NCBI GenBank assembly: GCA_026874595.1
Contig: CM049314.1
Location: 58,514,300 to 58,578,299, forward strand
Origin: Sipunculus nudus
Lineage: Eukaryota > Annelida > Sipuncula > Golfingiida > Sipunculidae
Direction: 5' to 3'
DNA: 64,000 nt
The position numbers were made by a program, and so were the translations under genes. Below the pieces are notes generated by a model. That model was not told the origin of the DNA. It saw only the letters and a list, made by a program, of their open reading frames with translations, and made no database searches. Below, piece by piece: positions 647-30,759 of the stretch (position 1 is the first letter of the stretch; each line of letters opens with the position of its first letter).

Positions 647-3600
647 CATAGATGGGTGGATGGATGGATGGATAGATTGATAAAAAAATCATGTCTGCAT
701 GATCAAACTTGATTAAATGTCAACTATTACAATTAATGTAGCTCAAGTTTCAAGTAACTATCATGATATACCATGAGGAGCGATCTTAATATTGTGTACA
801 TATATTATTGCGTAGCCATTCTAATATAATGTGACTACTGTTAAACATAGTCAATCAAATACGTAAAGGCGAAAATGGTCCATGTCCTAAAATCACGGTG
901 ACCGCACACATAAGTTATATCATCCAATTTTCTATCCTCAAAAAGAAACAAGACAATTCTTAACAGACTGCATGCGACACATTATATGTAATCATAAAAA
1001 ATATCTTGGATTGTAGTGCGCTTTGTCAGAGTTTTGTTTGACTCTTTAAACTCAAGATGCAGTAGACCTTTAACTTTATAATAAGATTTCACAAATTGCA
1101 AAGATGTGAGATGGATCTTTTTTTTTTTTTCTCAATGGGAATAAACTCTATGTACAAACCTGTAGGTCCTGCTGTAGTTTCTGGCACGGCCACTAAAAAT
1201 AAAAGAGAAAATATTCTGTTTCGTCTGCTTTACTTTTTATTTATATATCTTTATCTCAAAATCATTATGTTATGCTATTCTATCAAAGCCACAAAAATAA
1301 CCAAGGTTACTTCTGCAGAAAAGATGATGTGACAATATACAATATATAGCGAAATATACTTTTTTAATTGATGGTCCTTGTAATATGTATCAACTTTAAA
1401 AGCAAGTAGGTCATTCGAAGTGTCTATAAAATAATTGTGAAAAAGGCCTATGCCCGTAAATCATGGTGACCAATTACAAACTTTGTTACCCATTCTCTAA
1501 TCGGAAAAAAAGTAATCATTTTAGACCGCATGCGCTACATTACCTGTTAATGTAAACAAGTAAACCTTGCCCTTAAATCACGGTGACCACTTACCAACGT
1601 TGTTACCCATAATTTCGCATTCTCTAATCGGAAAAAAATGAAATCATTTTAGACAGCATTGGCTACGTTACTTGTCATAAAAGGTGTCTTTCTTTGATTG
1701 TGATGCGCTTTGATTAGAGTTTTTATTAAACTCCTTAAACTCAAGATGTAGCAGACCTTTCGCTTCATTATTAGATTTCACAAGTTTGCAAAAATGTGAG
1801 ACGGATCACTATTTTCTCTAAGGGGTCAACTATATATGTACAAACCTGTCGGCGCTGCTGTAGTTTCTGGCACGGCCACTAATAATAATGGTGATGATAT
1901 TCGTCTTAAACTGCTTCACTTATTTTCTTTTATCTTTTATTCAAAACCATTTTGTCAGATTATTCATAGCCACAACTAATCTAGGAGGTCTTCTGTTTTA
2001 TTATAATGTGACAACCAAAGAAAGATAGTTATTCGAATAATTCAATGTGAGAATGATCCATGCCTTTAAATCACCGATACCATTCATACAAGTTATATCA
2101 TCTAACTTTCTATCCTCGAAACGGAAAAGAGAACAATCTTCATAGATTGCATGCGACTCTTTACGTGTAAACATAAAAAAAAAAATATCTTTGATTGTGA
2201 TATGCTTTGTATGAGTTTTGTTTTGTTCCTTCAGCTGGAAATACAACAGATATTTTAACTTAATGATAAGATTTCACAAACTACAAAAAAATGTTAGACG
2301 GATCACTCTTTTTTCTGTGGGGTCAAGTATATGTACAAACCTGTAGGCGCTGCTGTAGTTTCTGGCACGGCCACTGAAAAATAATGTTAGTGAAGGTATT
2401 GTGTTTTGTCTGCTTCACTGTTTTTCTTTTATCATTTATTCCAAGCCATTTTGTCATGTTAACCTACAAAAGCCACGACTAATCTAGAAATTCTTCTGTT
2501 TTAATATAATGTGACAATAAATGAAAGTTGGCTATTCGACTAATTCAATGCGAGAATAATCCATGCCCTTAAATCACGGACACCACTGATACAAGTGATG
2601 CAATCTAATATTCTATCCTCGAAACAGAAAAGAGAACATTCTTCATAGTTTGCATGCGACTCTTTACGTGTAAACATAAAAAAAAATATCTTTGATTGTG
2701 ATATGCTTTGTATGAGTTTGGTTTGTTCCTTCAGCTGTAGATACGACAGAACTTTTAAATTAATGATTAGATTTCACAAGCTATACAAAATGTGAGACGG
2801 ATCACTCTTTTTTCTGTGGGGTCAACTATATGTACAAACCTGTAGGTGCTGCTGTAGTTTCTGGCACCGCCACTGAAAAAATGATATTGAAGGTATCGTG
2901 TTTCTTCTGCTTCATTGTTTTTCTTTTATCTTTATTCCAAGCGATTTTGTTATGTTAATCTATTAAGCCACAACTAATCTAGGAAGTCCTATGTTTTAAT
3001 ACAATGTGACAACTAATGAAAGTTGGTCATTCGAGTAATTCAATGCGAGAATGGTCCATGCCATTAAACCACGGAGACCATTTATACAAGTTAAATCATC
3101 TAATTTACTATCCTCGAAACGGAAAAGAAAACAATCTTCATAGATTGTATGCGACACTTTACGTCTTTGATTGTGATATGCTTTGTATGAGTTTTGTTTT
3201 GTTCCTTCAGCTGGAGATACAACAGACATTTTAACTTAATGATAAGATTTCACAAACTACAAAAAAATGTTAGACGGATCACTCTTTTTTCTGTGGGGTC
3301 AACTATATGTACAAACCTGTAGGCGCTGCTGTAGTTTCTGGCACGGCCACTGAAAAAATGATAGTGAAGGTATTGTGTTTCGTCTGCTTCACTGCTTTTC
3401 TTTTATTGTTTATTCCAAGCCATTTTTTCATGTTAATCTATCAAAGCCACAACTAATCTTGAAATTCTTCTGTTTTAAAATAATGTGACAACTAATGAAA
3501 GTTGGTCATTCGATTAATTTAATGCGAGAATGGTCCATGCCCTTAAATCACGGACTCCACTGATACAAGTTATATCATTTAATATTTTATCCTCGAAACG

Positions 3601-6600
3601 GAAAAGAGAACAATCTTAATAGATTGAATGTGGCATTTTACGTATAACTATAAAAATTATCATTGATTGTGATATGCGTTGTATGAGGTTTGTTTTGTTC
3701 CCTCAGCTGTAGATGCGACAGAACTTTTAAATTAATGATTAGATTTCACAAGCTACACAAAATGTGAGACGGATCACCCTTTTTTCTGTGGGGTCAACTA
3801 TATTTACAAACCTGTAGGCTCTGCTGTAGTTTCTGGCACCGCCACTGAAAAAAAATGATATCGAAGGTATTGTGCTTCTTTTGCTTCATTGTTTTTCTTT
3901 TATCTTTATTCTATGCGATTTTGTTATGGTAATCTATTAAGCCACAACTAATCTAGGAAGTCCTATGGTTTAATACAATGTGACAACTAATGAAAGTTGG
4001 TCATTCGAGTAATTCAATTCGAGAATGGTCCATGCCATTAAATCACGGAGACCGCTTATACAAGTTAAATCATCTAATTTACTATCCTCGAAACGAAAAA
4101 GAAAACAATCTTCATAGATTGCATGCGACACTTTACGTCTTTGATTGTGAAATGCTTTGTATGAGTTTTGTTTTGTTCGTTCAGCTGGAAATACAACAGA
4201 CATTTTAACTTAATGATAAGATTTCACAAACTACAAAAAAATGTTAGACGGATCACTCTTTTTTCTGTGGGGTCAACTATATGTACAAACCTGTAGGCGC
4301 TGCTGTAGTTTCTGGCACGGCCACTGAAAAAATGATAGTGAAAGTATTGTGTTTCGTCTGCTTCACTGTTTTTCTTTTATCTTTTTTTCAATGCAATTTT
4401 GTCATGTTATTCTGTCATAGCTACAACTAATTTATGAAGTGTTCTGTTTTATTACAATATGCAAACTAATGAAAGTTGGCCATTCGAGTAATTCAATGCG
4501 AGAATGGTCCATGCCATTAAATCACGGAGACCACTTATACAAGTTAAATCATTTAATTTACTATCCTCGAAACGGAAAAGAAAACAATATTCATAGATTG
4601 CATGCGACACTTTACGTCTTTGATTGTGATATGCATTGTATGAGTTTTGTTTTGTTCCTTCAGCTGGAGATACAACAGACATTTTAACTTAATGATTAGA
4701 TTTCACAAACCATAAAAAAATGTTAGACGGATCACTCTTTTTTCTGTGGGGTCAACTATATGTACAAACCTGTAGGCGCTGCTGTAGTTTCTGGCACGGC
4801 CACTGAAAAAATGATAGTGAAGGTATTGTGTTTCGTCTGATTCACTGCCTTTCTTTTATTGTTTATTCCAAGCCATTTTGTCATGTTAATCTATCAAAGC
4901 CACAACTAATCTAGAAATTCTTCTGTTTTAAAATAATGTGACAACTAATGAAAGTTGGTCATTCGACTAATTTAATGCGAGAATGGTCCATGCCCTTAAA
5001 TCACGGACTCCACTGATACAAGTTATATCATTTAATATTCTATCCTCGAAACGGAAAAGAGAACAATCTTAATAGATTGAATGTGACACTTTATGTATAA
5101 ATACAAAAATTATCATTGATTGTGATATGCGTTGTATGAGTTTTGTTTTGTTCCCTCAGCTGTAGATACGACAGAACTTTTAAATTAATGATTAGATTTC
5201 ACAAGCTACACAAAATGTGAGACGGATCACTCTTTTTTCTGTGGGGTCAACTATATTTACAAACCTGTAGGCGCTGCTGTAGTTTCTGGCACCGCCACTG
5301 AAAAAAAAATGATATCGAAGGTTTGTGCTTCTTCTTCTTCATTGTTTTTCTTTTCTCTTTATTCCAAGCGATCTTGTTATGGTAATCTATTAAGCCACAA
5401 CTAATCTAGGAAGTCCTATGGTTTAATACAATGTGACAACTAATGAAAGTTGGTCATTCGAGTAATTCAATGCGAGAATGGTCCATGCCATTAAATCACG
5501 GAGACCGCTTATACAAGTTAAATCATCTAATTTACTATCCTCGAAACGGAAAAGAAAACAATCTTCATAGATTGCATGCGACACTTTACGTCTTTGATTG
5601 TGATATGCTTTGTATGAGTTTTGTTTTGTTCCTTCAGCTGGAAATACAACAGACATTTTAACTTAATGATAAGATTTCACAAACTACAAAAAAATGTTAG
5701 ACGGATCACTCTTTTTTCTGTGGGGTCAACTATATGTACAAACCTGTAGGCGCTGCTGTAGTTTCTGGCACGGCCACTGAAAAAATGATAGTGAAAGTAT
5801 TGTGTTTCGTCTGCTTCACTGTTTTTCTTTTATCTTTTATTCAATGCAATTTTGTCATGTTATTCTGTCATAGCTACAACTAATTTAAGAAAAGAAAACA
5901 ATCTTCATAGATTGCATGCGACACTTTACGTCTTTGATTGTGATATGCTTTGTATGAGTTTTGTTTTGTTCCTTCAGCTGGAAATACAACAGACATTTTA
6001 ACCTAATGATAAGATGTCACAAACTACAAAAAAATGTTAGACGGATCACTCTTTTTTCTGTGGGGTCGACTATATGTACAAACCTGTAGGCGCTGCTGTA
6101 GTTTCTGGCACGGCCACTGAAAAAATGATAGTGAAAGTATTGTGTTTCGTCTGCTTCACGGTTTTTCTTTTATCTTTTATTCAATGCAATTTTGTCATGT
6201 TATTCTGTCATAGCTACAACTAATTTATGGAGTGTTCTGTTTTATTACAATGTGCAAACTTATGAAAGTTGGTCATTCGAGTAACTCAATGCGAGAATGA
6301 TTCATGCCCTTAAATCACGGAGACCACTGATACAAGTTATATTATCTAATTCTCTATCCGCGAAACGGAATAGACAACATTCTTCATAGTTTGCATGCCA
6401 CTCTTTACGTGTAAACATAAAGAATTATCTTTGATTGTGATATGCTTTGTATGAGTTTTCTTTTGTTCCTTCAGCTGGAGATACAACAGAGCTTTTAAAT
6501 TAAAGATTAGATTTCACAAACTACACAAAATGTGAGACGGATCACTCTTTTCTCTGTGGGGTCAACTATATGTACAAACCTGTAGGCGCTGCTGTATTTT

Positions 6601-9600
6601 CTGGCACCGCCACTGAACAAATGATATTGAAGGTATTGTGTTTCTTCTGCTTCATTGTTTTTCTTTTATCTTTATTCCAAGCGATTTTGTTATGTTAATC
6701 TATTAACCCACAACTAATCTAGGAAGTCCTATGGATTAATACAATGTGACAACTAATGAAAGTTGGTCATTCGAGTAATTCAATGCGAGAATGGTCCATG
6801 CCATTAAATCACGGAGACCACTTATATAAGTTATATCATCTAAATTACTATCCTCGAAACGGAAAAGAAAACAATCTTCATAGATTGCATGCGACACTTT
6901 ACGTCTTTGATCGTGGTATGCTTTGTATGAGTCTTGTTTTGTTCCTTCAGCTGGAAATACAACAGACATTTTAATTTTATGATTAGATTTCACAAACTAC
7001 ACAGAATGTGAGACGATCATTCTTTTCTGTAAGGGGTCAACTATATGTACAAACCTGTAGGCGCTGCTGTAGTTTCTGGCACGGCCACTGAAAAGAAATG
7101 TGAGTGAAGGTATTGTGTTTCGTCTGTTTCACTGTTTTTCTTTTATTGTTTATTCCAAGCCATTTAGTCATGTTAATCTATCAAAGCAACAACTAATCTA
7201 GAAATTCTTCTGTTTTAAAATAATGTGACAACTAATGAAAGTTGGTCATTCGACTAATTTAATGCGAGAATGGTCCATGCCCTTAAATCACGGACTCCAC
7301 TGATACAAGTTATATCATTTAATATTCTATCCTCGAAACGGAAAAGAAAACAATCTTAATAGATTGAATGTGACACTTTACGTGTAAATACAAAAAAATA
7401 TCATTGATTGTGATATGCGTTGTATGAGTTTTGTTTTGTTCCCTCAGCAGGAGATACAACAGACATTTTAACTTAATGATTAGATTTCATAAACTACACA
7501 AAATGTGAGACGGATCACTTTTTTTTTCTGTGGGGTCAACTATAAGTACAAACCTGTAGGCGCTACTGTAGTTTCTGACACGGCCACTGAAAAAAATGAT
7601 AGTGAAGGTATTGTGTTTCGTCTGCTTCACTGTTTTTCTTTTATCTTTTATTCTAAGCCATTTTGTCATGTTATTCTGTCATAGCTACAACTAATTTAAG
7701 AAGTGTTCAGTTTTATTACAATGTGCACACTAATGAAAGTTGGTAATTCGAGTAATTCAATGCGTGAATGGTCAATGCGCTTTAATCACGGAGACTACTA
7801 ATACAAGAGATGCCATCTATTATTCTATCCTCGAAACAGAAAAGAGAACAATATTAGTAGATTGCATGCGACACATTACGTGTAAACATTGAAAATTTAT
7901 CTTTGTTTGTGATATGCTATGTATGAGTTTTGTTTTGTTCCTTCAGCTGGAGATACAACAGACCTTTTAAATTAATGATTAGATTTTACAAACAACACAA
8001 AGTATGAAACGGATAACTCTTTCCTGTACGGGGTCAACTATATGTGCAAACCTGTAGGCGCTGCTGTAGTTTCTGCTGTAATTTTCGTCTTAAACTGCTT
8101 CACTGATTTTCTTTTATCTTTTATTAAAAACCATTTTGTCAGGTTATTCTGTCATAGTCACAAATAATCTAGGAAGTCTTCTGTTTTATTATAATGTGAT
8201 AACTGATGAAAGATAGTCATTCGAGTAATTCAATGCGAAGATGGTCCCTTCCCTTAAATCACGGAGACCACTTATACAAGTTATATCATCTAATATTCTA
8301 TCCTCGAAACGAAAAAGAGAACATTCTTCCTAGATTGCATGCGACTCTTAACGTGTAAACATAAAAGAATTATCTTTCATTGTATTATGGTTTGTATGAG
8401 TTTTGTTTTGTTCCTTCAGGTGGAGATACAACAGACCTTTTAACTTAATGATTAAATTTCACAAACGACACAAAATGTGAGACGCATCACTCTTTTCTCT
8501 AAGGGTTCAACTACATATACAAACCTGTAGGCGCTGCTGTAGTTTCTGCCATTATTATTCTTCATTGTTTTTCTAATTTCTTTATTAACGACATTTTTTT
8601 TCAGAAAGTTTCTGCGATTGTTGTAACTAAAACAACGTGGCTGCATGTTTCAGAGTTAACCCCTTTGAAATTCATCACCAGACAATCAACCCCCAACCCC
8701 ACACACACATAAACCAACCCCGGCCATAAACCCGAGTGATATCCCATCCGAATCATATGTTTCTCAGGCCAATTAGTTACAATCCAACAATTTATCCTCC
8801 TGGACATGACCCCCGGATATTTATCCCAAAGTACACTTATCTAGCTGTTATCTATTTGTATGTAAGGTTATGTTATTCTGTCGAATTTTCATATAAAATT
8901 TTGCAAACAAACTTTTTTTTTTAACTTTGGATCATAATGAGACTAAAAATCGATGTTTATATTTTTTTTCATTTTTCATCTTGGATAAGTGGCGGCATAT
9001 ATAAAAAAGGGCTTTATAAAAATAAAAAACCAACATTTTAGACCGGGCAACACAAGAACAATTTGATATCCTCAATAGAAAAGCTGTCTTACTTGATCAT
9101 GCGCTACATTTTACTTTAAAATCGATTCCTGCATCCAAAAATATTGCATTTTACATATTTAATAAGATGATTATATAGTATAAATATGCACATATGAAAA
9201 AAATGGTGGAACTGTTTATATATTAAATAATTATTTTGATTATTTTTTTTTTTTCTAGAAAGAATAACAAACTTAGGGTACAAGTTTTAGTTTTGATCAG
9301 ATATAACGTTTGTCTGTTAAAATGTCTATATTTTTTAATTAATAAAATGCAGATAATTCATGCAAATTAGACAAATTATTTGAGTAAAGGTAGTCGTTTT
9401 TCCTTAAGAAAATCCAAAAGGAAATAGTTGCTCGTTATTTTACTTATTAGCCGTAATATGTTTTAATATTTATTTTAAAGTGTATATACATATTTGTGTT
9501 ATTTTTTAACGAATTTGCATATATAAATATATGTCAAATGAAAAAGCGATACTGACTGAAAATATAAAAAAAAAATATTTGAGACCATATATTCAGTGCG

Positions 9601-12600
9601 ATTAAACAATAGGTCTGCTTCCAATCAAGTTTTCCATTTTATTTTTATATTTCTGTGTGCAATTAACAGCTGGTGGAATCCGTATCAATCGTAAGGTGTT
9701 TGGTGCGAAATAATACAGCAACTGGGTATTGATGTCATGATGTGAAAAGCAAGGATTGTACATGTACCTTATACGTCATGCATCAAGTTAAGAAAATAAT
9801 TTAATTCATGCGTATCAGCATAATTAATAGACATTTAAAGAACAAAGGATGTTCAACTTATGTTCGTATGATATCTCGCTGAAAATCAATATGTTATCCA
9901 TGTGTATAAATGATGTTTGCAGTGTATGCCTTTGAGCATATTTACATGAGTAAAATCAATTTTAACTTAAATATTCAGATTTAAATTTAATCTGATAAAC
10001 AACCATTTTCCAGTTGGACGGTTTCTGTCAAATTGTATTTTAATTTGAAATATAATGGTTAGCACTTTGTTTTTTTTAAGCATATTTGTTCTGTTATATA
10101 TTTTCTTTGAGTCATTATAATACAGTATTAGTTGAACGAAAACAACATACTATGACATTAATTGACATAAGTTAATTCCATCTTATTGCAATTTTCTTTT
10201 AGCGTTTTCAGACAAAACCAAACCCGAATGTATGCTATATATATTTATTTGTTCATAAAACACATTATATATTGGAAAAATATATCATACGAGGTGATTA
10301 TTCGAGGAGTATAATTGTCCTAGGGGAATTATCGGGAGGGGGGGGGGGGGGGTTATTGTGTTTGGGATAAACTTCATTTGGGGATGTTGGGGGGGATGGT
10401 AATATTCTAAGGGGCTTATTGTAGGGGTAATAAAATATAATAAGTTAGACATAAGACACTAAATTGTGACCCAGGAAAGTAAACAACGAAATCTACACGT
10501 CAACCCGTTGTCAATTTACATATTAGATGTTATATATGTAATGATTGATTGACAATGACAAAGATTGTATAGTTCCGATGGCAGCTATATTGAGTATAAA
10601 AGTCAGACATCTCAGAGTCAAATGCGTGATAATGCAACAGAAAGATAATGTAAAATATATATTTATGTCATTATAGTAATGCATAATCTATTTTAATTGT
10701 ATTGTCATAATTTATAAGAGTGTTGGGTTTAAATGCAAATGCAAGAAATTCTAACCTGTAATAGTAATAGTGTAGTAATAAGACCCCTAATAATTTAATG
10801 ATAGCTATTACTTTTACTATAAGCCTTGGCTTAAACGGGTTAGGGCGGGAGTGTTAGTTACCGCCACCAAAACTATTAGTTTGCGATCATGGAACTTAAT
10901 AAATGTGACCTCCCCTAGATGGCTCCAGGTTGAACCCACTGGACCATGACAGGTCCAGAAAAGCCAATCACTTAGGTACCTCTGTTTCACAGCGGGTGCA
11001 AGCGATCAACTAATCGGCGACAACTGCGCTGCACGCACACGCCCTGTTAATCGCTCTTTGCTTTGTGTCTTTTATTACAATGCGACGGAGAAATACGCGG
11101 AGACACACTTCTCAGGGCCTACTCTCACGATCCTGTTGAAAAAGAAATGAATGTACCACAGACGTGACAAGAAGCAGACATAGGTCTGTGGTCAGCTGAG
11201 GCTCGACTCTCATCGAAAACTTTCGACATCCTCCCTGAGCAAGTCTGTCTTGAAACATCTGACAACCGCCGACGTGAACGAGTTCGATTTCGCAAACTAC
11301 TATTAGCGGGAATTGATGGACTGAAGAAAGCAGACAAGTAAGAGGACAGGGTGGTTAGCGGCTCCACACAACCACAAATCACAGAATCCGAGTTGACGGG
11401 TCCAACCGATTTGGCGGGAAATCTGTCTCCTCCGGACGCCATCTTGGGTAGTCTTGCGCGACATACAAGAGGAAAGTCTATGGCCAACCCCCCCCCCCCC
11501 CCTCATACCAGTTTATGTGGCGACAGGTAAAAGGGACTGAAACCAGTACACCGTCAAGTCAATGAAAATGTTGGTATGAATATAGGTTGTCTGGAAACTG
11601 ATATGGCTGCTGCCGTGAGTGCGGCATTGACAAGTATTTCGGAAACACAACCGTAGCTCAGCCCTCCCTACCCACATCTTCTGATACAACACCACCTGAT
11701 ACTGAACATTCTGGTCTGGTTTTTCAACTTATATCACATCTGATCCCTGCTATTTCACAAACTGTAACTGTAGCAGTTACCCAAGACGTTACCAGGGCAC
11801 TCGATCACTACAGTTACAAAATCTTTACACGAAGCTATCGGAGAGCGTATTCTGGCACTGCTGAATGAAAACGATATTGGCTTGAACAGTACAATCACGT
11901 TAATACAAAGAACTTAGCTGTGTTTGTTAGTACATGTGAGAAATAAACTGTCTATATCTATTTATATGTTGAGTATTCGGCTTATATCGCCGATCGCACA
12001 AACGCTGGGTATAGCTGGCATAGCGTCCTAGATTATGACAACGAATACCGTTTCACGCAGTCCGCTTTGGCATTTGAATAGGGTTACGAGCCCACTCACC
12101 CCGCAACTTTGAATTTAAAGCTAAAACAAAGCAATCCATCGGGGCCTCCTAAGCACAAAAAAAAAAAATAAAACACGAGCGAACGAACAGCCCGTTTGCC
12201 GACTGTATAACTTCATTAAATGCAACTTCGGGAACTGTTAATACAGACAAGTTTGTAAAAAACCGGGTTGTAATCGGTCATATCTTCAAACGCACCAAGA
12301 GAACCCCCATCATAAAATCACCACATCTTTCATCTGATCTTAAAGCGAGTGTGTGGTGCACGGAACTGGAACATGACCCTGACAAAATGTTCCTTGTTGA
12401 GGAATTCACAAATGGGTTTCGGGTATTATAGAGCCTCCCGAAACATAAAACAGTTAAAAGTCAATAATTACAAATCGGCTATCGCCCATATAGACAAAGT
12501 TTAAAAACAAATTCGCGATGAATTGGTTGAATGCCGTTATGTCAGTACCTCTACATTAGGATCATTACGAGTGCCTTAGGTAAGGTCAACAAAAGCACGT

Positions 12601-12898: not shown

Positions 12899-12981
<83 letters not shown>

Positions 12982-15900
12982 TGATACTTACCAGTCGTGG
13001 CTGCCAAAGTCGTGCAGAGAAAACTCGAACCTGTAATACAAAAGGACGTAAGGCTTTCACTGAACGGTGTAGAAACAATCAATAGTTTTTACGTATTTCA
13101 TTCATTTAAGTGTGACATAGGCACATTAAATGAATAAACCGGAGGCATCAAACATATTTTCAACCATAACTATCTAGGAGTTCATGATTTCACCTTTGTC
13201 TATTGTTTTTTTTTGTCTGTTGTGCTTTTTGTCTGTTGGCAGGATTATGGGAGACGTTTCCAAGAAATGTTAACATTGGTGGGGTCGAATGAAGGGCCAT
13301 TACCAGGACGGTTGCTTTGTTGATATCATTGAACAATACAGTTTAAAACTTTCACAGACATCTGTCGTCTATAATGAAAAAGTGCTGTGGCAAGTTTGGA
13401 TACGATATCTATAATAATTTTTAATGATATGCAATGTGAAAATGATGTGTCATCTTGTTCTGCTCATAAATGAAAACTGAAGAAGGAGCAACAAAATTCC
13501 ATTCGGTGTTATAGAACTTTAGATATTTTCAGACTATAACAGGTAAATGAAAGATTAGTGGGAAATTCGGAGGCAGGGTTGTTGGGATATAGTGGAAGAT
13601 TCTCGGGGGGGGGGGGGGGGTTGATACGCGGAAATCCGTGACTGTCGTATGTCAGTTAGAAGAAGTCTACTTAAGTTTGCATTCAGCACCCACTATGTCA
13701 CACTCCAGCGACCTATTGCGCTATTTTGGTCCTTAAATCGTAACTACTATCCGGAAAAATGAGTAAACGAGGATGACGAAGTAATGAATCGTGCTGTGCA
13801 TCTAAGCCCTTGATTTATAAACAGACTCTCAACAGAAGTACGGACAGAAGCCCCACCCTGAGACAATGACCCCACATCATCTGCAAAACACCATCTTTTG
13901 ACACAGAGAACTAAAAAAAAACCTTAACAGAAAATCACATTTTCCTTCACTCATCACTTTTATGAAATATTTATACTGGTCATGCAAAATTTGTTTAACT
14001 TTCAGCATTCTGTCTTTTATTATTTAAATTTAACTTTAATCGGCTCTATTCAGAAGCATTTAACTTTGCACTAATATGGGGATCGAGCGGGGTAATGACA
14101 AAATGACAAGACATAATATGATGAATCTGCGAACTTGTTGAAATCGCTATGGTTAAAATAATGCATTTCATTTCCCTGACGGGTGGCATGGACAAAGGGT
14201 ATCTTGCCCCAACTAATAAAAACGTGACTCCCCAGGTCCATGGCCCGAGATTAATCTTGACGAATATATTCTTATACATAACACTACAGCTGTTTTTTTT
14301 AAAATTTATTTGTTATTTAATAATTCGTTCCCATCCAATTCTAAAAAAGTCGTCATTAACATTTACGTCTATGGGTTATTCCTCTTTTTCACATATTACT
14401 CTTCCGCTTTGTTCCCGCTTCGTCTATCTATTATCACATCAGGACTATGTTATCGTAGCCATGTATCCGATGCTGGTAAAAAGGATACCTGCCCATTATG
14501 GACCACCCTAGGTAAATGGCAGCAAACCGGCCCAGCAAACTGCGTTCTTAAGGCCCTGTGTCGGCAGTATGCCATGCGAATATAGAAATATTGAACAGTC
14601 CAGCTTCTGGATAAGTTTCTCTCCGAATGTGTCGCGACAATGGACACCAAATCCTTTCTCGAACAGGTTGTCGTGGTTTTCAGAACCGATGTGCTAATGT
14701 CGTGTATAGCGTTGTCGAATTCTGGCGAGTCCACTTTAACGAAGAACAAATGCGAACAACACAAATCTCGCACGAACCTCGGGCAACATTCAGGGGATTT
14801 TTCGCGAGACAACCGAACTCATTGCGCATATTTTGCGAATAACGAACGTCGCGCGTTTTTCATGCAACATTCGTATATATTCTCACGATATTCTTGCGAC
14901 CGGCGATCCGACCGACACTTGGACAGAATAAATGATTTGAAATGCATTTAAATGCACTGCCTGCATCATTTGTCACCCAGAAGTCGATGACAGGAGATTG
15001 ACCACCAAGCTCTGAAACCTGTCCCGATCTTGGATAAAAAGGAAGCGAGTAACGAAAGTCGAAAGTCGATTGTCTTCCGACCTATTTCAAGGGCTCGCGA
15101 ATGCTTTTCTGAGGAGGTCAGCTGTTCTCAAGAAGTAAGCGAATAGTTCGTCAACAGGTCGAGATATATGTTTGTGATTTCACAATGATTTTGCGAACAT
15201 CACGCACGTCGTGAGTATAAGTTGCGCATATGACAAAGCTTAATAGATATTTCCGAGAGTACATCACGAGCAAATCACAAACGCGGTTGCCAGAAACGCT
15301 CGCAAGAAAATTTTACCTTTTTTTATTCCCGCCGAACTATGATCTCACGAACACATGACGGCGCTTCCGAACCCCTGAGTATGCTTGGAGAACATTTGGA
15401 ACTTAAATTACGAATGTGGACTATCGACTATCTGTAGTCGTTATTAAGCTGGATGTGCGGCTGTTGGCGACTAGTTGGAAACAAAAAAATTGCAAAAAAA
15501 AAAAGCGAGAATTTGCGGCAATTTCAACACGGAATCACACTGAATTCGAACTTACGGATATTGCACGACTGTCGGATGAACCCTCTTCCAAAAAGTTCAC
15601 CTAGAGTTCGCATATATAAGTTGCATGCTATTCACGTTATTTACTTTCGCTGTTTCGCGCCCATGGCATATCTGATTCCCATTTTTTCTCCAACAAATCA
15701 CAATTTACTTTTACGCCAACCCCTCACAATATTGCTTCATTTTTCTCACACTCATTGACTAACGGAAACTAAAGTAAGAAGAGTTCGAGGCATGTGTCGC
15801 ATGAATGTGTTGTTAAAAATTTAGAGCGAAGTGTGAACTAAGCTTTGCAACTCACGCAAGGAAATGGAGAATCACTGTGAACTTTCGCTCGGAGAAATTA

Positions 15901-18497
15901 AGGAACCTCCCTTGGATGCCGTTCGAAAAATGTCGCCAACAGTCGCAACTTAGTGAGATAAAGGATTATACGGCTATCACAAGCCCATCAGCAGCTCTTT
16001 TGCGTCAGTTATCTTGGACAACGCAACAGGGACATGAGCTGTGAGCGTCGTTGCCCTGCTCCCCTAACCTGGTTTAAACACATATATACATTAGCATGAC
16101 CGGAGGCCCCTTCAAACAAAGGTATTACAACCACAAGAAATCATTCACGCACAGGACCCATTCAAACGAAACCGAGCTTGCCAAACACATTTGGACCCTG
16201 AAAGACAAGCAACAATGCTTCACTATCATTTGGTCTATAATCCAGCAGTCAAACACATTTATGACCTCTTCACTTCAGTGCAATCTGTGCTTGACAGAGA
16301 AACTAGCAATCATAAGCTCAAAACAAAAGAACCTTTTGAACAAACGTTCGGAAATTGTTTCCACCTGCCGCCATGGTCAAAGGGCACCCAACCGTGCTAA
16401 AAAGAAATTATAAAAACCAATATCGCAACTAGTTGAATTTCAGTCACCTAACGAGCGGACGAGGCGAAACCGACGGTCGTGATCCAGATTCATCACATAC
16501 CTTCACATATATATTATATAAATATATATATCCCGGACAATTAACAAACTTTGCCGTTTACTTGATATGAAACAAAATCGTGCAGGGCTAAGCTGTTTGG
16601 CCCTCGGATAAAGAAATTGCACGATCTCACAAAACTGCGGATTTTTTTTTTTAAATTCAGAATACATTATTGTAATCAAGGGTACCTCTAGCTTCTAGTG
16701 TTTTAGAGATTATCAAATGTGTCACCATTATATGGTTCAACATATCATCAAGCGAATAACAACTTTAAAACATTATACTCTGCTGCCTGTTTGCACAGCT
16801 CTCTTTATTTTTTTGACTGACGCACTTGATGTAAGGTTGTATTTTTAATCATTTGCAGTCATTCTACTAGGAAAATTTCAAAAATTGACTGGTATCGCAC
16901 TGAACCGGGTGCATATTTCTGACACGGAAAACAGTCCTAGTCACCTCACCCTTTAATTCTGCTAGCAGTTAGATAAATATACCAACGATCAAACAGGCAT
17001 GATTTTAACATAACCTGCTCAATGGAGTTAATAAAATTAATGATAAATTGACCCTGCTTACGACATCACGTACTCGGGTCGAACTGCCATATGTATTCTT
17101 TACTTGTGCCCTGAAGTGCCACTCGACCTAGATTCGACAATAGAGCAGCTATATATCTCACCCTGTGTTATTTTTAGAAAAGGCAGGTGTGGACTTTAGG
17201 TAATTTTCCCAAAAGTAGTCAATGTTAGGACACTGGTTGGCACGTGAGGGGGGACCCTTTTTCAGAGGGTTTAAGGAGATTAGTGTTCGTAAAGAGTGTC
17301 ATTTTCACTGAAATTTAATCAGGGGTGGGTCAAAGTTTCACAAAGTATACTTAAGAAAGGGTGTTCCTTGACACATGATATTTTTTATTTTTTGAAGTTA
17401 GACCCATTGCCTGGGGGGAGGGAGGTTGGGGGTTGGACTTCTTATTGAATGCGGATGAAGGGAACTATACGATAAGAATAATTCTTTTCTGTTTTTTTTT
17501 CTTTTGTTAATATTTTTGTTGTTGATAGAGGTAAACGCCTACGTTTATGAACTTAACTCGAAGTGTATGTACATCTGCGGAATTCTATTCGTATAAGGTA
17601 ACAGGGCAGTGTCGCAAGCTCCCTTTCATTTTTTGATCCTATCTCAACCAGGCCCAGGGAATACTGCACCTGCTGGCTCTGGGTGTGTAATCGTCCCCGT
17701 TGCTGAGTCGTACCCCGAGGAACCCCCAAAACATGCACTCGTTTGTGAATGAAACACGGCCGTTTGGCAGGGCCTTCCCAATTAACTTGCACAGCCCTAA
17801 CCCTCGGTTGAGCCAACCGTGAAAAATCTCCCCGCCTCGGTTGAGATTCGAACCTATTATTTCCCGGCGTTGAGTCATGAGCTCTGCACCTGAGAAAGAG
17901 AAGCCGGTGTTTCTGAGTTTATTTACAAGCGGTAAGAAACAACCCAGGGGACATGACCTCTCTTTAAGACATTAGAGCCAATCAAAATTCCGCTTTTTTC
18001 TCTTTAAGTTCTGGCGGATTTCAACCTTGCCCAAAGGTGCATAAAAGCGAACCTTAATCATTCACCTAGATTATCTGCTATCATCTGCAGTAGGTTGGCA
18101 TCCATTTGTGATTAATATCTTTTTGATGGCAATTTTTTTCTGGGTGCTGAGTTATACAATTTTCTAGTGTAAATTTCGCCAGGTAATAAGGTTTGTCAGT
18201 TACGATTTCCTAGGTAAGTCTTCAAACTACTGGCCATGTATGTTTCACCGTTACATGAGGTGATTTTGTTTCTGGTAAAAGGCGTCTAGACAATATACTT
18301 ACGAGCATTAGGTTGTACAAGGTTGTACATTTGGCCAGCCTCAAATTATAGGACTTTTGTTTATATTAAATTTAGTAGAAACGTTAAACAAGAGCCCTTC
18401 TCGAAAAGTACTTGTTCCTCCGACTTTAAAATAAACAGGGTATTTTAAGAGGAAACTTACAAAGGACAGCGAACAGCATCCCTGAACCGGTGGTCAT
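1..18497 (-). CDS. Gene A: secreted protein with micro-exon-encoded Thr/Pro-rich stalk (3' part off left edge)
   Basis: Minus-strand gene built from exon 1 (18461-18497, signal peptide start), exon 2 (12992-13030, end of signal peptide) and up to 16 micro-exons between 8545 and 1160. Every join is phase 1, so the split codons give C, then V or E at each boundary without a stop. The expected product is a signal peptide followed by as many as about 169 residues of 11-residue VAVPETTAAPT-like repeats, rich in Thr, Pro and Ala and probably O-glycosylated. No C1q exon lies in the window for this copy. I infer one to the left from gene B, whose exon 2 and micro-exon match closely. The exon structure is seen in the sequence; expression and the number of exons used are not known. 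Alternative reading: some array copies are dead exons. Confidence 0.7.
553..643. repeat. (TA)n(GA)n microsatellite with GGAT tail
   Basis: About 56 bp of TA followed by about 36 bp of GA, then a short GGAT/GGTG run. The same TA-GA compound form recurs next to gene A exon 2. Confidence 0.95.
1160..1192 (-). CDS. Gene A micro-exon 16 (last seen)
   Basis: 33 nt, phase 1-1, reading AVPETTAGPT (Ala to Gly). Acceptor ttttatttttag. It is 686 bp from the previous copy, and its flanks are the most diverged at this end. Any further exons lie left of the window. Confidence 0.62.
1846..1878 (-). CDS. Gene A micro-exon 15
   Basis: 33 nt, phase 1-1, reading AVPETTAAPT with a CCG Pro codon. Its acceptor (accattattattag) has a weak pyrimidine tract, so splicing may be poorer. 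Its unit is among the more diverged ones. Confidence 0.6.
2341..2373 (-). CDS. Gene A micro-exon 14
   Basis: 33 nt, phase 1-1, reading AVPETTAAPT. The donor context is gtttgtacat; the acceptor tattttttcag is strong. Confidence 0.68.
2840..2872 (-). CDS. Gene A micro-exon 13
   Basis: 33 nt, phase 1-1, reading AVPETTAAPT with synonymous changes (GCG and GCA Ala codons). Confidence 0.68.
3317..3349 (-). CDS. Gene A micro-exon 12
   Basis: 33 nt, phase 1-1, reading AVPETTAAPT. The acceptor tract catttttt-cag is intact. Confidence 0.68.
3812..3844 (-). CDS. Gene A micro-exon 11
   Basis: 33 nt, phase 1-1, reading AVPETTAEPT (second Ala to Glu). Donor gtttgtaaa as in the copy at 5265. Confidence 0.67.
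4291..4323 (-). CDS. Gene A micro-exon 10
   Basis: 33 nt, phase 1-1, reading AVPETTAAPT. Its flanking intron sequence is nearly the same as that of the copy at 5744. Confidence 0.68.
4770..4802 (-). CDS. Gene A micro-exon 9
   Basis: 33 nt, phase 1-1, reading AVPETTAAPT, with intact acceptor and donor. Confidence 0.68.
5265..5297 (-). CDS. Gene A micro-exon 8
   Basis: 33 nt, phase 1-1, reading AVPETTAAPT with the GCG Ala variant. Acceptor ttttttcag; donor gtttgtaaa instead of gtttgtaca, a variant shared with the copy at 3812, which lies 1453 bp away. Confidence 0.68.
5744..5776 (-). CDS. Gene A micro-exon 7
   Basis: 33 nt, phase 1-1, reading AVPETTAAPT. Acceptor ttttttcag, donor gtttgta. 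It matches the copy at 4291 and lies 1453 bp from it. Confidence 0.68.
6084..6116 (-). CDS. Gene A micro-exon 6
   Basis: 33 nt, phase 1-1, reading AVPETTAAPT. It sits only 340 bp from the next copy because its unit lost about 140 bp at a junction near 5888. Splice sites are intact. Confidence 0.68.
6580..6612 (-). CDS. Gene A micro-exon 5
   Basis: 33 nt, phase 1-1, reading AVPENTAAPT. The first Thr of the pair is replaced by Asn. It carries the GCG Ala codon variant shared with the copies at 5265, 3812 and 2840. Acceptor ttgttcag. Confidence 0.65.
7055..7087 (-). CDS. Gene A micro-exon 4
   Basis: 33 nt, phase 1-1, reading AVPETTAAPT between split Val codons, with acceptor cttttcag and donor gtttgta. 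Confidence 0.68.
7554..7586 (-). CDS. Gene A micro-exon 3
   Basis: 33 nt, phase 1-1, tttttcag acceptor, gtttgta donor. It reads AVSETTVAPT: Pro to Ser and Ala to Val compared with the common unit, the most diverged full-length copy. Confidence 0.65.
8052..8075 (-). CDS. Gene A micro-exon 2 (shortened, 24 nt)
   Basis: Sequence loss removed the normal acceptor. A replacement acceptor (aaaattacag) leaves 24 nt, which keeps the 1-1 phase and reads (A)ETTAAPT. The donor is gtttgca rather than gtttgta. Confidence 0.45.
8525..8545 (-). CDS. Gene A micro-exon 1 (shortened, 21 nt)
   Basis: The donor side is intact (CTACAG then gtttgta), but the usual acceptor and first 12 coding bases are replaced. 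The nearest AG (atggcag) would give 21 nt, still in frame, reading (E)TTAAPT. The upstream tract is purine-rich, so use of this acceptor is doubtful. Confidence 0.4.
8590..10740 (-). other. Gene A intron 2, homologous to gene B intron 2
   Basis: Long stretches match 56.0-58.3 kb and 59.8-61.3 kb in the same order: for example the CCCCCGGATA-type block at 8808 against 56245, TGGATCATAA at 8928 against 56358, GTCTGCTTCC at 9613 against 58102, AACTTATGTTCGT at 9857 against 59807, and ATGCAACAGAAA at 10631 against 61174. No exon was recognised. A G-run lies at 10338-10352. Confidence 0.7.
10740..12730 (+). pseudogene. Degraded DIRS-like retroelement remnant inserted in gene A intron 2
   Basis: This block is missing from the matching place in gene B. 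The plus strand has coding traces. Around 11200-11340 one frame reads a charged gag-like stretch ending GIDGLKKADK. Around 12330-12430 there is a stretch ending FLVEEFTNGF, like the linker before the reverse transcriptase of DIRS-type elements. 12560-12720 reads SALGKVNKST...IHLFHDCSRTFGQ...VRYQSVDG, matching the RT start pattern (S-x-LG-V-x-K...IHDCSR-x-x-G...YQ-S-VD) of DIRS-order elements. Stops and frameshifts are many. No terminal repeats were found. Family assignment is inference from motif order. Confidence 0.5.
11488..11502. repeat. Poly-C run
   Basis: Fifteen C in a row. Similar G or C runs occur at 10338, 13605, 46425, 52857, 58349 and 63844. Confidence 0.95.
12786..12980. repeat. 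TA-rich block and (TA)n(GA)n microsatellite beside gene A exon 2
   Basis: TATTATATA repeats at 12786-12838, then pure TA at about 12903-12946 and GA at 12947-12979, ending about 12 bases from the exon 2 splice donor. Gene B has a TA/TG-rich tract at the same relative place (61345-61440). Confidence 0.95.
12992..13030 (-). CDS. Gene A exon 2, end of signal peptide
   Basis: A 39-nt exon in phase 1-1, bounded by a polypyrimidine-poor but usable acceptor (attacag) and donor gtaagt. It reads SSFLCTTLAATT between split codons. The paralogous exon at 61461-61499 has the same length, phase and splice sites and differs at only a few bases. A (TA)n(GA)n microsatellite starts about 12 bases downstream of the donor on the transcribed strand. 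Confidence 0.75.
13031..14580 (-). other. Gene A intron 1, left part
   Basis: Intron sequence with a G-run at 13605-13620. Overlapping ORFs of up to 120 codons occur on both strands at 14046-14812, but none has a recognisable motif and none is supported by splice sites. Confidence 0.5.
14590..15960. repeat. Block shared with 62400-63560 (TTCGCGA-rich)
   Basis: Segments such as AAGTAAGCGA...GTCGAGA (15133 against 62495), GATTTT-CGAACATCA-GCAC (15186 against 62597), TGTTGGCGACTAGTTGGAAA (15464 against 63060) and AGGAACCTCCC (15900 against 63518) occur in the same order in both places. This can be ancestral intron of the duplicated gene or two copies of one dispersed element. Repeated CGCGA/CGAA words suggest an old transposon. 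Confidence 0.6.
16096..16520 (+). mobile_element. Penelope-like element fragment (GIY-YIG end)
   Basis: A 105-codon plus-strand ORF reads LTGGPFKQRYYNHKKSF-like sequence, then [12 protein letters not shown], a CNLCLTEKLAII block and NKRSEIVSTCRHG. This is the C-terminal endonuclease pattern of Penelope-like elements (conserved R, Y, H, then CxxC-L-EK and RSE-x-x-x-x-CRH). Just after it, a segment near 16449-16475 (acgagcgg..gaggcgaaac) resembles the 3' ends of such elements. Reverse transcriptase is absent, so this is a 5'-truncated copy. It lies antisense in gene A intron 1. Confidence 0.75.
16520..17630. other. Intron 1 of gene A, no feature
   Basis: AT-rich sequence, with a short T-rich and G-rich mixed stretch at 17200-17450. 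Nothing coding is seen. Confidence 0.4.
17640..17900 (-). mobile_element. tRNA-derived SINE, copy 1 (minus)
   Basis: On the minus strand a tRNA-like head (box B GGTTCGAATCTC near 17844-17855) is followed by GGCGGGGAGATTTTTCACGG, then a body with CGGCCGTGTTTCA-TCAC and CACAAACGAGTGC, ending near a TGGTTGAGATAGG segment. The same body follows the tRNA-like heads at 43631 and 48571. Confidence 0.8.
18461..18497 (-). CDS. Gene A exon 1, signal peptide start
   Basis: Coding part of exon 1: ATG at 18497-18495, then twelve codons reading MTTGSGMLFAVL and one base (T) before a consensus donor gtaagt (18455-18460). Spliced to exon 2, the split codon becomes TGT (Cys) and the reading continues SSFLCTTLAATT. 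This makes a typical signal peptide with a short polar start, a hydrophobic core and small residues (LAA) near the likely cleavage point. The exact phase match with exon 2, found 5.4 kb away, is the main support. The matching exon of gene B would lie beyond the right edge. Confidence 0.7.
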
Positions 18498-26040: not shown

Positions 26041-26360
26041 AACGGCGTGCTCACGGAAGTACCCGTTCAGGCATGTGATCGTGTACTCAGAAATTTAGCG
26101 TAACTCGTTCAAGGAGAACGCAAAATTCTAATTTAACATACCTGTTGTATCAATAAACATGACCGAAATTGGCTGAATACACGCTCTCTTAAAAAAATGT
26201 CAAATAAAGAACGGTGATAATGCAATAGGCTGCTGGTGTTCTGGTTTGTCAGATTTTTACCAGTTGGTGGTACTGTTTACAGAATAATGGGGAACGTAAC
26301 ATGATAACGAGGACACCATATACTGAAATGAACTGGGGTAAGGGAAATAGCATTGCATTA

Positions 26361-26507
26361 AGTGGCAATTATAGTAGTTAATTCTTTTTAGCCAACCACG
26401 GGGACCCGACCGCGGGAGGGGGGTCGCGTCACGCTTCACCGATCTTTACTATTGTTGCCACTTGGCAAAGTGAAAACACGCCAGTTGCTCGGTCGCCGTG
26501 GTACAAG
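26361..26507 (+). repeat. Ngaro A1 repeat
   Basis: 147 bp matching 30763-30910 with few differences. It begins AGTGGCAATTA, contains CCACTTGGCAAAGTGAAAAC, and ends GGTACAAG. Confidence 0.9.
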
Positions 26508-26581
26508 AAACCACGTGTACCGGTAGTTAAATTTTCGTAGGTTAAGGGGCCTTTAATTGCGTCTCACAATATTTAAGCAGA

Positions 26582-27076
26582 ATGAACCAGGAAGAGAACC
26601 AGGAATTAGAACAACAGAAACCTCGCCTTTGCACCTCTTGTGGTAGGCCGTGTAAAGGCCACGAGGGGCCTTATGGCCCTCAATGTAAGCACCATGTCCC
26701 GCAGGGCACTCCAGTGATAGAGAGCCAATTGGGAAAGTGCAGTGATTTTCAGTATTCTGCAGACTAAAAGAATGACAGTATGAACATCCTTATGGAACAA
26801 ATGCAGAAATCTCGCCTTTGCACCTCTTGTGGTAGGCCGTGTAAAGGCCACGAGGGGCCTTATGGCCCTCAATGTAAGCACCATGTCCCGCAGGGCACTC
26901 CAGTGATAGAGAGCCAATTGGGAAAGTGCAGTGATTTTCAGCATTCTGCAGACTCAAAGAATGACAGTATGAACATCCTTATCGAACAAATGCAGAACGT
27001 GAATTTGGACCTTACGGCTCTCATAGAGACACAGGCCACTCTTACAAAACTTGTTATGTCGTGCATCAAGGGCTAG
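26582..27076 (+). pseudogene. Ngaro ORF1 start with duplicated zinc-binding module
   Basis: An ATG at 26582 opens an ORF encoding LCTSCGRPCKGHEGPYGPQC, a compact Cys/His module (CxxC...C...H...C). After an in-frame TAA at 26765-26767, a second copy of the same block follows (26780-27076). The two blocks, about 26610-26800 and 26802-26992, are nearly identical at 192-bp spacing, a recent tandem duplication. The second block continues into MNILIEQMQNVNLDLTALIE, a likely coiled segment. The role is probably nucleic-acid binding by a gag-like protein (inference). Confidence 0.7.
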
Positions 27077-27590
27077 CACATTCAGCTACTAACCAGTGTG
27101 ACGCAAAAGAGGCCGAGCAACCAGTTTCAGGTCCCGAAGTGACAGTGCAGCCTAAGACGCCTCAGCTAGGCTTGTCTGAAAAGGTGATAGCAGTAGCCCA
27201 GCTTGGTGAGTACGTGAACTTACTTGACTTTTTATCTAATGCAGAAAGTTGTAGTCAGGAGCTAGAAGCCATCCTGGTGAATGGTATGTTAGAAATGCAC
27301 CCTAAGAAGCCTAAACCGGTCATAGACAATTTTAACTGTTGGCTATCTACATGGACAAACTTTGAAAGAGTCGTTATACATAAATACCCACAATTGTACA
27401 CAAACTTGGCCGTGTACCGCACCTTCGTGCAAGAGTGGGATAAAAAAATACGTTTGGCTAGCGGTTTACGCGTATGACGTAAGACATCGTACAAAACTCT
27501 CAGGGACGGCTCACCCATTTCAGTTCCACATAGTAAATACGGACTTATACGCTACAATTTTGGAAGCTACAGCCATTAGGAAAGGTGATA
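27061..27590 (+). pseudogene. Ngaro gag-like domain
   Basis: Reads KVIAVAQLGEYVNLLDFL, then a W-rich stretch (FNCWLSTWTNFERVVI) and YPQLYTNLAVYRTFVQEW. The spacing of W and the L-Y-x-x-Y motif recalls the capsid-like region of DIRS-order ORF1 proteins. It overlaps the previous ORF by 16 bases in another frame, and the next part continues from 27362 in a third frame near 27450, so at least two frameshifts have occurred. Confidence 0.6.
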
Positions 27591-28771
27591 TTAGATGTTT
27601 TAAGTGCCGTTCTCATTCCCATTCCGTTCGAGAATGCCCCTTTCGGGCAGAGCTAGCCCAGAAAGAGGCGAGCGACACCTATCATCAGGACCAGAGTGCC
27701 CCTCGTAACTCGAGTATCGGGCGTAAGGCAAGCTCGGAACGATGGTTTCACAATGGGGCAGAAGGATGCAACAACTATCAGATCGGTCGATGCAGTTTCC
27801 CAGCTTGTAAGAGAGCCCATGTGTGCCGGAACTGTAAAGGACCTGACCCGTACAACCAATGTAAAAAGTGTAATCCGAACTACATCGCCATTAAATTTAC
27901 CGGCATGGAAGGAAGCATTACGATTACATCCGGACCAAATTTCGTAAACAGATTACTTTATGGTATAGAGCATGGAGTGAGAATAGGGCACAATGGCCCC
28001 CGAGAAACACGTGTAAGTCCCAACTGGCCATCCACGAAAACCCACGCGGCCGTGGTCAAAGAATCCATTGATAAAGACCTGAAGCTCAAACACAGGGCAG
28101 GGCCATTTTCACAACCACAATTCCGACATTTTGTCGCTTCGCCGTTAGGAGTGTATCACAAGAAGCGCTCAGACAAATATCGTGTCATACACGATCTCTC
28201 GTGGCCGCCGGGCCAAGCTGTAAACCATTACATTACCGATAAGGAATGTGCCGTACGTTATATATCTATGGATCAGGTGGTCACAATCGTGAAATCCTAC
28301 GGGAAAACGCCTTACTCGCTAAGCTTGACCTTAAGGACGCTTACAGACATATCGTTGTCGCTCCAGGGGACTGCGAACTAGTTGGAAGTTCCTTGCCAGT
28401 AACGGACTCCGAAGGGATAGAACGCGTAGAATATTTCGTCGATCTTGTGCTCCCGTTCGGGCTTCGTAGTTCGGCTCGTCTCTAACGATTATGACGACGC
28501 TCTTCAGTACGTAATGCGCGACAGGGGAGCGGCAGTCGTGGAGGATTACCTAGACGATTACGTCACTTGCGGATCTCCGGCATCAAGCCAGTGTAATGAT
28601 AATCTGAAGATTATGCTGAAGAGTTGCGAGGACCTGGGTTTTACCGTCCAGCCTTCTAAAGTGACCAGCCCCTCTACACGTATGGAATACCTTGGTATTA
28701 TTATTGACACAGAAATGATGGCGCTTCAGATTTCCGAGGAAAGAATGTCCGAAGTCATAAGCGAACTATGA
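27590..28771 (+). pseudogene. Ngaro zinc knuckle and reverse transcriptase
   Basis: A knuckle of CxxC-x4-H-x4-C form (CFKCRSHSHSVREC, near 27597-27640) is followed by a CCCH-like finger (27765-27850). RT begins at FVASPLGVYHKK...YRVIHDLSWP (28130-28205), continues after a frameshift near 28310 as LLAKLDLKDAYRHI, then VLPFGLRS, and after another break VVEDYLDDYVTC (catalytic DD, 28540-28565) and PSKVTSP...YLGIIIDT. The motif order is that of DIRS/Ngaro RTs. All three catalytic Asp positions are kept, although the frame is broken at least twice. Confidence 0.85.
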
Positions 28772-29019
28772 CTTTGGAGGGAGAAGCGCACCTGTAAACC
28801 CGCGAGCTTCTATCTTTGATAGGAAACGTTTGTCGCTAAGGTAGTTCGGCCGGGTAGAACATTCACTAGACGCCTTATTGACTTAGCAAAGAAAGTCAAG
28901 CATCTGCATCACCGAACGCGGCTAAGTAAAGCTGCACGTGGAAGACATCGGCTGGTGGTTAGAGTATTTGCCATCATGGAACAGATTAAGCTTGTTCTAC
29001 GATTCCGACTGGACAGTCA

Positions 29020-29415
29020 ATGCAGATTTGTGGTTCGTTCAGTGACGAACGAGGCGGCCTCGCACAGAAAATTATCGCCTGGCGGGAATTGCATGCTCTC
29101 GTTTTAGCGGCAGCCACGTGGGGACATAAATGCGCCAGAAAAAATGTTTTGTTCCATTGCGATAATATGACAATTGTGAACATTCTGCAAAAAGGCGCGT
29201 CTAAAAATGATAAGATTATGTCATTACTGCTATCACTATTCTTTATATGTGCTAATAACAATTTTATGTGTAGTGCCGAACACGTCCCAGGGGCCAAAAA
29301 CCCGGCCGCCGACGGCTTCTCTCGCTGGCAAATTGCGAGATTTAAAGCGCCTGATCCACAGGCTAATGAGCACATGACAGAGATTGGGCGTATCCCCTTG
29401 GATGTTTTATCTTAA
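29020..29415 (+). pseudogene. Ngaro RNase H domain
   Basis: The frame 29020-29415 encodes SFSDERGG, ELHALVLAA, FHCDNMTIVN and HVPGAKNPAADGFSR. These hold the acidic residues of RNase H (E in ELHAL, D in HCDN, D in AADGFSR); the first Asp falls in SDERGG. It ends before a TAA, and a spacer of about 160 bp leads to the recombinase. Confidence 0.8.
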
Positions 29416-29575
29416 ACGAAGGGTTAGTGGTAACTTACTTAATTTCCTTAAATGTATATCAGTTTATTTCAGATGACAGTCGACTGTTACAAAGCGAGGC
29501 CAGAGAGCTGGTGAGAGGAGGCCTTAAATCATCCACCCCACCAGACGGAAATATGAAGTAGGACAGAAACAGTAT

Positions 29576-30400: not shown

Positions 30401-30404
30401 GTAA

Positions 30405-30590: not shown

Positions 30591-30700
30591 TACAATCCAT
30601 GTAAAATAAATAAGTTTTTATCAAAATCGGCATCGCAAACAGGGTAGCTAGCTATTGTGACTCGAGACTCGCGGTATCTTAGGTTGATTCGGGCTTTTAT

Positions 30701-30759
30701 CTGAGGTCCAAAATATTTCAGAATCCTCATTTTTTATGTGCGAGAAATGCGTGAAGTGG
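30701..30759 (+). repeat. Ngaro B1 repeat
   Basis: 59 bp (CTGAGGTCCAAAATATTTCA start, GAAATGCGTGAAGTGG end) matching 31109-31167 with two or three differences. Confidence 0.9.

Follow-up and report, generated by a model that had tools for sequence, protein, structure and literature searches.

A tandem array of small symmetric exons in Sipunculus nudus, probably coding the stalk of a predicted C1q-type protein

The closest described counterpart to the locus considered here is the SmPoMuc gene family of Schistosoma mansoni, in which, according to excerpts of PMC2576457, exon 2, of 27 bp (9 codons), lies in ~1-kb genomic repeats and codes for a mucin-type peptide on the N-terminal side. The locus itself consists of 16 units in tandem, every one of which has a 33-nucleotide (33-nt) element; this array lies in a 64,000-nucleotide stretch of the Sipunculus nudus genome (assembly GCA_026874595.1, contig CM049314.1, positions 58,514,300 to 58,578,299; hereafter the window). 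Repeat numbers in the tandem SmPoMuc genes are given in the same excerpts as 1, 1-2, 7, 15 and about 20, with none in some genes; both unequal crossing-over and gene conversion are considered there as sources of this variation. SmPoMuc introns are more than 93 percent alike and show no gradient from centre to edge, and for homogenisation between loci it is gene conversion that the authors prefer. The Coccidioides SOWgp gene and spider silk genes, which encode other proteins than the array gene, are presented there as further exon-plus-intron tandem repeats coding a repeated protein and subject to concerted evolution. In SOWgp the central repeats are better conserved and repeat number is polymorphic (PMC2576457, excerpts).

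Exons of the micro-exon genes (MEGs) of S. mansoni mostly differ from one another, and in this the MEGs are unlike the array, where a single exon has been copied. Tandemly repeated Schistosoma exons of 81 bases, larger than 33 nt, were reportedly described by Davis et al. in 1988. Likeness to the MEGs lies in short exons, mostly multiples of three, long introns, secreted proteins and alternative splicing, traits given for MEGs in excerpts of PMC10526429, which put their exons at 3-81 bp, many of 15 bp. At 33 nt the array's exons are above the microexon limit of <30 nt that appears in excerpts of PMC8627023. The original prediction for this stretch held it unusual that splicing should link a tandem repeat in the DNA to a mucin-like repeat in the protein; SmPoMuc, as excerpted in PMC2576457, shows that this kind of gene is already known, and it is the use in a C1q-type gene that is new as far as we have searched. 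No C1q-type gene with such an exon array was found in the open-access literature searched (by terms that miss the spelling "micro-exon"), which leaves the prediction's parallel remark uncontradicted, although coverage of open-access papers alone makes this weak evidence.

We take the array to be the portion of a secreted C1q-type gene that codes for the stalk, with stalk length set mainly by germline copy number, and give this reading a rough probability of 0.72. The units run from 1160 to 8557 on the minus strand, somewhat inside the predicted bounds of 850..8590 and with the predicted count of 16; transcript direction is from high to low coordinates, and units are numbered in transcription order from E01 (8525) to E16 (1160). 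Tandem Repeats Finder (TRF) reports array periods of 479, 340 and 473 bp. Spacing from unit to unit is 473-499 bp, close to the ~480 bp foreseen, apart from one interval of 340 and one of 686 bp. A scan for the 33-nt element, allowing <=11 mismatches and confined to the minus strand of the 64-kb window, returned 17 matches: the 16 units and a single copy at 55936-55968. The array thereby goes well past anything expected by chance. As predicted, each element encodes one 11-residue Thr/Pro repeat, VAVPETTAAPT or a near variant, with the exact form in 10 of the 14 intact copies. The array's features are as follows, from the element scan unless another source is named.

1160 to 8557, minus strand: array of 16 units, each with a 33-nt exon or remnant (TRF, mismatch scan, alignment)
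8525 to 8557, minus strand: E01, a remnant, positional counterpart of the neighbour's single exon (also alignment)
8052 to 8084, minus strand: E02, a remnant (also alignment)
7554 to 7586, minus strand: exon E03, VAVSETTVAPT
7055 to 7087, minus strand: exon E04, VAVPETTAAPT
6580 to 6612, minus strand: exon E05, VAVPENTAAPT
6084 to 6116, minus strand: exon E06, in the unit of 340 bp (also TRF)
5744 to 5776, minus strand: exon E07
5265 to 5297, minus strand: exon E08
4770 to 4802, minus strand: exon E09
4291 to 4323, minus strand: exon E10
3812 to 3844, minus strand: exon E11, VAVPETTAEPT
3317 to 3349, minus strand: exon E12
2840 to 2872, minus strand: exon E13
2341 to 2373, minus strand: exon E14
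1846 to 1878, minus strand: exon E15, divergent edge unit with 1 difference from the consensus exon (also alignment)
1160 to 1192, minus strand: exon E16, VAVPETTAGPT, divergent edge unit (also alignment)

Exon borders here and in the neighbouring gene are taken from sequence. In 14 of the 16 units (E03-E16) a pyrimidine-rich tract and AG acceptor precede TGGCCGTGCCAGAAACTACAGCAGCGCCTACAG or a close variant, which is followed by GTTTGT, and the donor, CAG/GTTTGT, is identical across all 14. An acceptor and donor of its own had been predicted for every unit; in E01 and E02, however, deletions have removed the acceptor together with the initial 9 nt of the exon, leaving the last 24 nt and the donor. 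The 33-nt element is open in three frames (three copies translated), so openness cannot fix the frame. What does fix it is the neighbouring gene, whose C1q exon begins in phase 1 and whose two small exons are both multiples of three, which makes the 33-nt exon phase 1-1, in agreement with the prediction. Because the exons are symmetric, any subset joins in frame, again as foreseen, and gain, loss or skipping of a unit is an 11-residue step without a frameshift. An in-frame stop lies 2 to 23 codons beyond the donor in 14/14 intact units, and the protein repeat therefore exists only by way of splicing. No stop or indel occurs within the 14 intact exons; joined, they give at most 14 x 11 = 154 residues (166 with exon 2), short of the 169 or so first proposed. 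The 154-residue repeat comprises 41 T, 27 P and 1 S, a composition high in Ser, Thr and Pro as in a mucin-like stalk.

Exons have changed far less than the introns around them. Across the 14 intact units (E01 and E02, their exons broken, are excluded from diversity and change counts), diversity per site (pi) is 0.047 in the exon against 0.179 in the intron. A tree inferred from the intron columns requires 9 changes at the 33 exon sites and 492 at the 453 intron sites, a fourfold lower per-site change in exons (P 1.9e-7, a rough value). All 389 intron windows lying clear of the exon exceed its 9 steps (minimum 21), and gapped columns number 0/33 in the exon and 39/453 in the intron. The edge units are especially telling: the introns of E15 and E16 have diverged by 33 and 30 percent from E03-E14, yet their exons carry 1 and 2 differences, and conservation against their own introns has P 3e-5 (E15) and 9e-4 (E16), also rough.

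A head-to-tail neighbour on the same strand, at 47.1-61.5 kb and upstream in transcription order, appears to preserve the state before expansion. Its exons, with exon 2 of the array gene and a shared intron block, are given below.

61461 to 61499, minus strand: paralogue exon 2 (cross-gene alignment, joined frame)
55936 to 55968, minus strand: paralogue single 33-nt exon (element scan, alignment)
52995 to 53036, minus strand: paralogue 42-nt Thr/Pro exon, phase 1-1, GC donor (joined frame)
49097 to 50064, minus strand: paralogue large C1q exon, 968 nt (Pfam, joined frame)
47061 to 47255, minus strand: paralogue last exon, protein end and stop codon (joined frame)
12992 to 13030, minus strand: exon 2 of the array gene, 39 nt, phase 1-1, SSFLCTTLAATT (cross-gene alignment, joined frame, upstream-frame check)
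8745 to 9530, minus strand: intron block preceding the array, with its homologue at 56181-56889 ahead of the paralogue's single exon (alignment)

Joined, the paralogue's exons form a single frame through the 33-nt and 42-nt exons into a Thr/Pro segment and then three C1q stretches, where Pfam C1q (PF00386) matches the product at 2.8e-25. The large C1q open frame has 12 relatives in the PDB (cerebellin-1, C1q, C1q-like 2 and 3, caprin-2; best E 4.6e-9). The donor of the 42-nt exon (52995) is apparently GC, not GT (CAG/gcaagt).

Exon 2 differs between the two genes at 4/39 bases, with splice sites conserved; an in-frame extension check finds stop codons close upstream in both, on which account it is kept as a 39-nt exon. 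By its inferred role it is probably the end of a signal peptide. Five blocks of the array gene (8745-9530, 9528-9827, 10560-10720, 12908-13084 and 15068-15790) find matches within 56181-63390 at 64-81 percent, with order and strand preserved, and the sequence immediately upstream of E01 aligns with that immediately upstream of the paralogue's single exon. Shared exon 2, shared upstream intron blocks and the E01 flank together place the array and the single exon at the same position in two copies of a gene. Judged on this alignment, the array is the expanded state of one ancestral small exon. The C1q exons within the window (47.1-50.1 kb) are the paralogue's and lie upstream of the array in transcription order. 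The C1q-type identity put forward by the original prediction thus holds by descent only: the array gene is predicted to be C1q-type on the strength of exon 2, the 33-nt exon and the upstream introns, which are paralogous between the two genes.

The array's internal divergence indicates how it may have grown. Unit introns are 61-97 percent alike, and the introns of E07-E08-E09 match those of E10-E11-E12 at 95, 97 and 96 percent, which marks a duplication of three units as one block. With 98 percent identity (TRF), the 340-bp unit E06 is a duplicate of E07. Mean identity within E03-E14 is 87-90 percent (E06, 80), whereas identity to E03-E14 falls to 77 percent in E01, 81 in E02, 67 in E15 and 70 in E16. 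That the edges diverge while the centre is more uniform, together with the recent duplications of blocks, indicates unequal crossing-over, much as a conserved centre with divergent edges is read for SOWgp (PMC2576457, excerpts). Growth by tandem duplication, as first proposed, accords with both the block duplications and the single-copy paralogue, and the unequal crossover suggested with it is supported by the same pattern as an interpretation. Copy-number differences between individuals are to be expected from this sequence pattern.

Set beside SmPoMuc, the array shares the essential design. A small exon whose length is a multiple of three (here 33 nt, 14/16 intact) recurs together with its introns in a genomic tandem repeat, and tandem paralogues differ in repeat number (here one copy at 55936 against 16 units). 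The differences are nonetheless considerable. SmPoMuc units are ~1 kb with GA microsatellites between them, whereas those here are ~480 bp with no microsatellite per unit; at a TRF score >=50 none was found between array units, and an AT/AG tract at 554-644 lies outside the array. Introns here share 61-97 percent identity, the edge units diverge, and the neighbouring gene codes for C1q domains. No hammerhead was found in the window at the Rfam gathering threshold; the gene's 3' part, where SmPoMuc has its intronic hammerhead, lies beyond the window. Variable transcripts are reported for SmPoMuc in the excerpted source, and the array gene is known from DNA alone. Given the SmPoMuc-like design without unit microsatellites or a hammerhead found, and with a C1q neighbour, we regard the array as a separate case that works alike, and not as SmPoMuc. 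Similar AT/AG compound microsatellites occur at 554-644, past the 3' edge of the array, and at 12904-12979, beside exon 2, and such tracts are found elsewhere in the window too.

Protein searches add few relatives. The paralogue product, in kind closest to C1q-domain (C1qDC) proteins, has one at E <=0.001, a partial hypothetical protein of the annelid Paralvinella palmiformis (P0001), with 27 percent identity over 85 percent of the query; unlike the array stalk, it is without a VPETTAAPT-type repeat. With the stalk as query, a search in which scoring was limited to the 7991 candidates with most words in common yielded 15 proteins at E <=0.01, of which the 5 examined have Thr/Pro-rich repeats in other kinds of protein. 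Among them, Thr/Pro-stalked MAM-domain proteins of Penaeus carry EPQTTAAPT or EPETTAAPT (P0002) and EAPETTAAPT (P0003), with 69 and 73 percent identity to the query over 89 percent of it. Their repeat periods are 9 and 10 against 11 here, and no C1q is among their precomputed Pfam domains. We take the 5 as cases of convergence in Thr/Pro composition among different kinds of protein.

The explanation we prefer, length control chiefly by germline copy number, takes the observed anatomy, phase, conservation, paralogy and duplication pattern as its basis. In the ancestral gene a signal-peptide exon would have been followed by a single 33-nt exon of phase 1-1 and then by the C1q exons, the state kept by the neighbour. 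In the downstream member of the head-to-tail pair, unequal crossing-over would have multiplied that exon and its ~445-nt intron into 16 units, of which 14 have both splice sites. If the gene is transcribed, splicing would join repeats of the form ...VAVPETTAAPT..., up to 14 copies (154 residues), at the N-terminus of the mature, presumably secreted protein before its predicted C1q domains. Such a Thr/Pro-rich spacer, probably O-glycosylated, may hold the C1q head off a surface or off other subunits. Germline copy number would be the main control of length, in a manner likely to vary within populations, with variable exon inclusion as a possible second control.

Several observations weigh against this account. 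The two most 5' units, E01 and E02, have no acceptor. The array gene's own C1q exons fall outside the window and are expected below coordinate 1. A strict scan for an ATG, a hydrophobic stretch and a phase-1 donor on the minus strand, at 13030-47000 and above 61499, found no exon 1 in either gene. (Relaxed settings gave a sole candidate, 29864-29900, which was rejected as it sits inside a retroelement-like region.) E06, a central unit, has a mean identity of only 80 percent, which we attribute to its shortened intron aligning badly. By diversity, 16 of 453 sliding 33-column windows are as low as the exon or lower; all 15 listed among these overlap the exon, shifted by <=13 columns donor-ward. 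Counted as distinct codon changes, the exon has 3 synonymous on ~10.3 sites against 5 non-synonymous on ~22.7, so synonymous sites seem equally constrained and it is not clearly the amino-acid sequence that is conserved; an in-exon splicing signal could explain part of the conservation. Finally, the P values are rough because parsimony steps among duplicated and converted units are not fully independent.

The strongest competing explanation, which we think possible but hold well below copy-number control, is that a variable number of the 14 exons is included, through skipping or exon repetition of the sort reported for SmPoMuc, and that one allele thereby yields many lengths. Small exons are often skipped, and these 14 are symmetric and near-identical with the same donors, every subset staying in frame. 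There is also a precedent, in that SmPoMuc transcripts have 1 to 100 repeats from genes with at most about 20 (PMC2576457, excerpts). A further lead is GCATG, on the transcript strand in 15/15 introns between units, twice in 7/15, and 163-187 or 254-278 nt past the donor (313 in the longest intron). Presumably this is an Rbfox-type motif; the introns being copies of one another, it is only a weak lead. Running counter to variable inclusion, acceptors and donors are nearly uniform, with no clear graded strength within E03-E14. Neither a hammerhead nor any other Rfam match lies within the array, and its 13 inverted-repeat pairs, of 16-36 nt and 71-88 percent complementary, include none that is long and perfect.

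That the array is decaying or silent, a pseudogene or a set of unused exons spread as a relic by passive unequal crossing-over, strikes us as unlikely. The lost acceptors of E01 and E02, the exon 1 not found, the array gene's C1q exons out of view and non-synonymous changes that are not clearly depleted would all fit such a fate. It accounts poorly, however, for edge units whose exons and splice sites are nearly unchanged though their introns have diverged by about a third, for 14 exons without stop or indel, and for an exon 2 likewise conserved with the neighbour.

A mutually exclusive, Dscam-like cassette with one exon per transcript is very improbable: tandem exon duplication is often tied to such choice (PMC9013439, excerpts), but choosing among near-identical peptides (10/14 exactly VAVPETTAAPT) gains little, and symmetric length permits all copies to be included. 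Tandem repeats are prone to misassembly, and E07-E09 and E10-E12 are 95-97 percent alike. A false tandem expansion of a single unit is nevertheless scarcely credible, since introns differ by 3 to 39 percent between units and are thus not copies of one read, and the array's upstream edge joins sequence common to the paralogue.

Other elements occur in the window. A 33-bp minisatellite at 47417-47525 (3.3 copies, 75 percent) lies in the paralogue's last intron; its period equals the exon length, and its consensus sequence differs from the exon's. That intron also holds a tRNA-like Rfam match (48567-48638, plus strand), the only Rfam match at the gathering threshold, with related copies at 17566-17912 and 43630-43904; their sequences suggest a tRNA-derived short interspersed repeat. 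A retroelement-like region at 26358-31167 (plus strand) has a weak RVT_1 match (3.3e-4, below the curated cut-off) and ~150-bp direct repeats (26358-26510 and 30760-30913, 94 percent). Its frame 29834-30373, without a Pfam match, resembles what we take to be a tyrosine recombinase. Fragments like those of long interspersed nuclear elements lie at 34649-40031 (plus strand), with a weak Exo_endo_phos match (0.0023, below cut-off), and a 250-bp unit occurs in three repeats at 37530-38289.

With length control by copy number as the preferred reading, a design best known from parasite mucins would have arisen in a C1q-type gene too, and the single-copy neighbour makes the before-and-after state readable within one 64-kb stretch. 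We suggest only tentatively that the reach of a soluble pattern-recognition protein of C1q type is tuned in 11-residue steps by inherited copy number together with the exon number of each transcript. Were this so, a single allele could yield a ladder of stalk lengths, and the locus would be an independent counterpart of SmPoMuc, serving recognition instead of evasion. The array also offers a natural test both of how more than 12 near-identical small exons are spliced in series and of whether stalk length varies between individuals.

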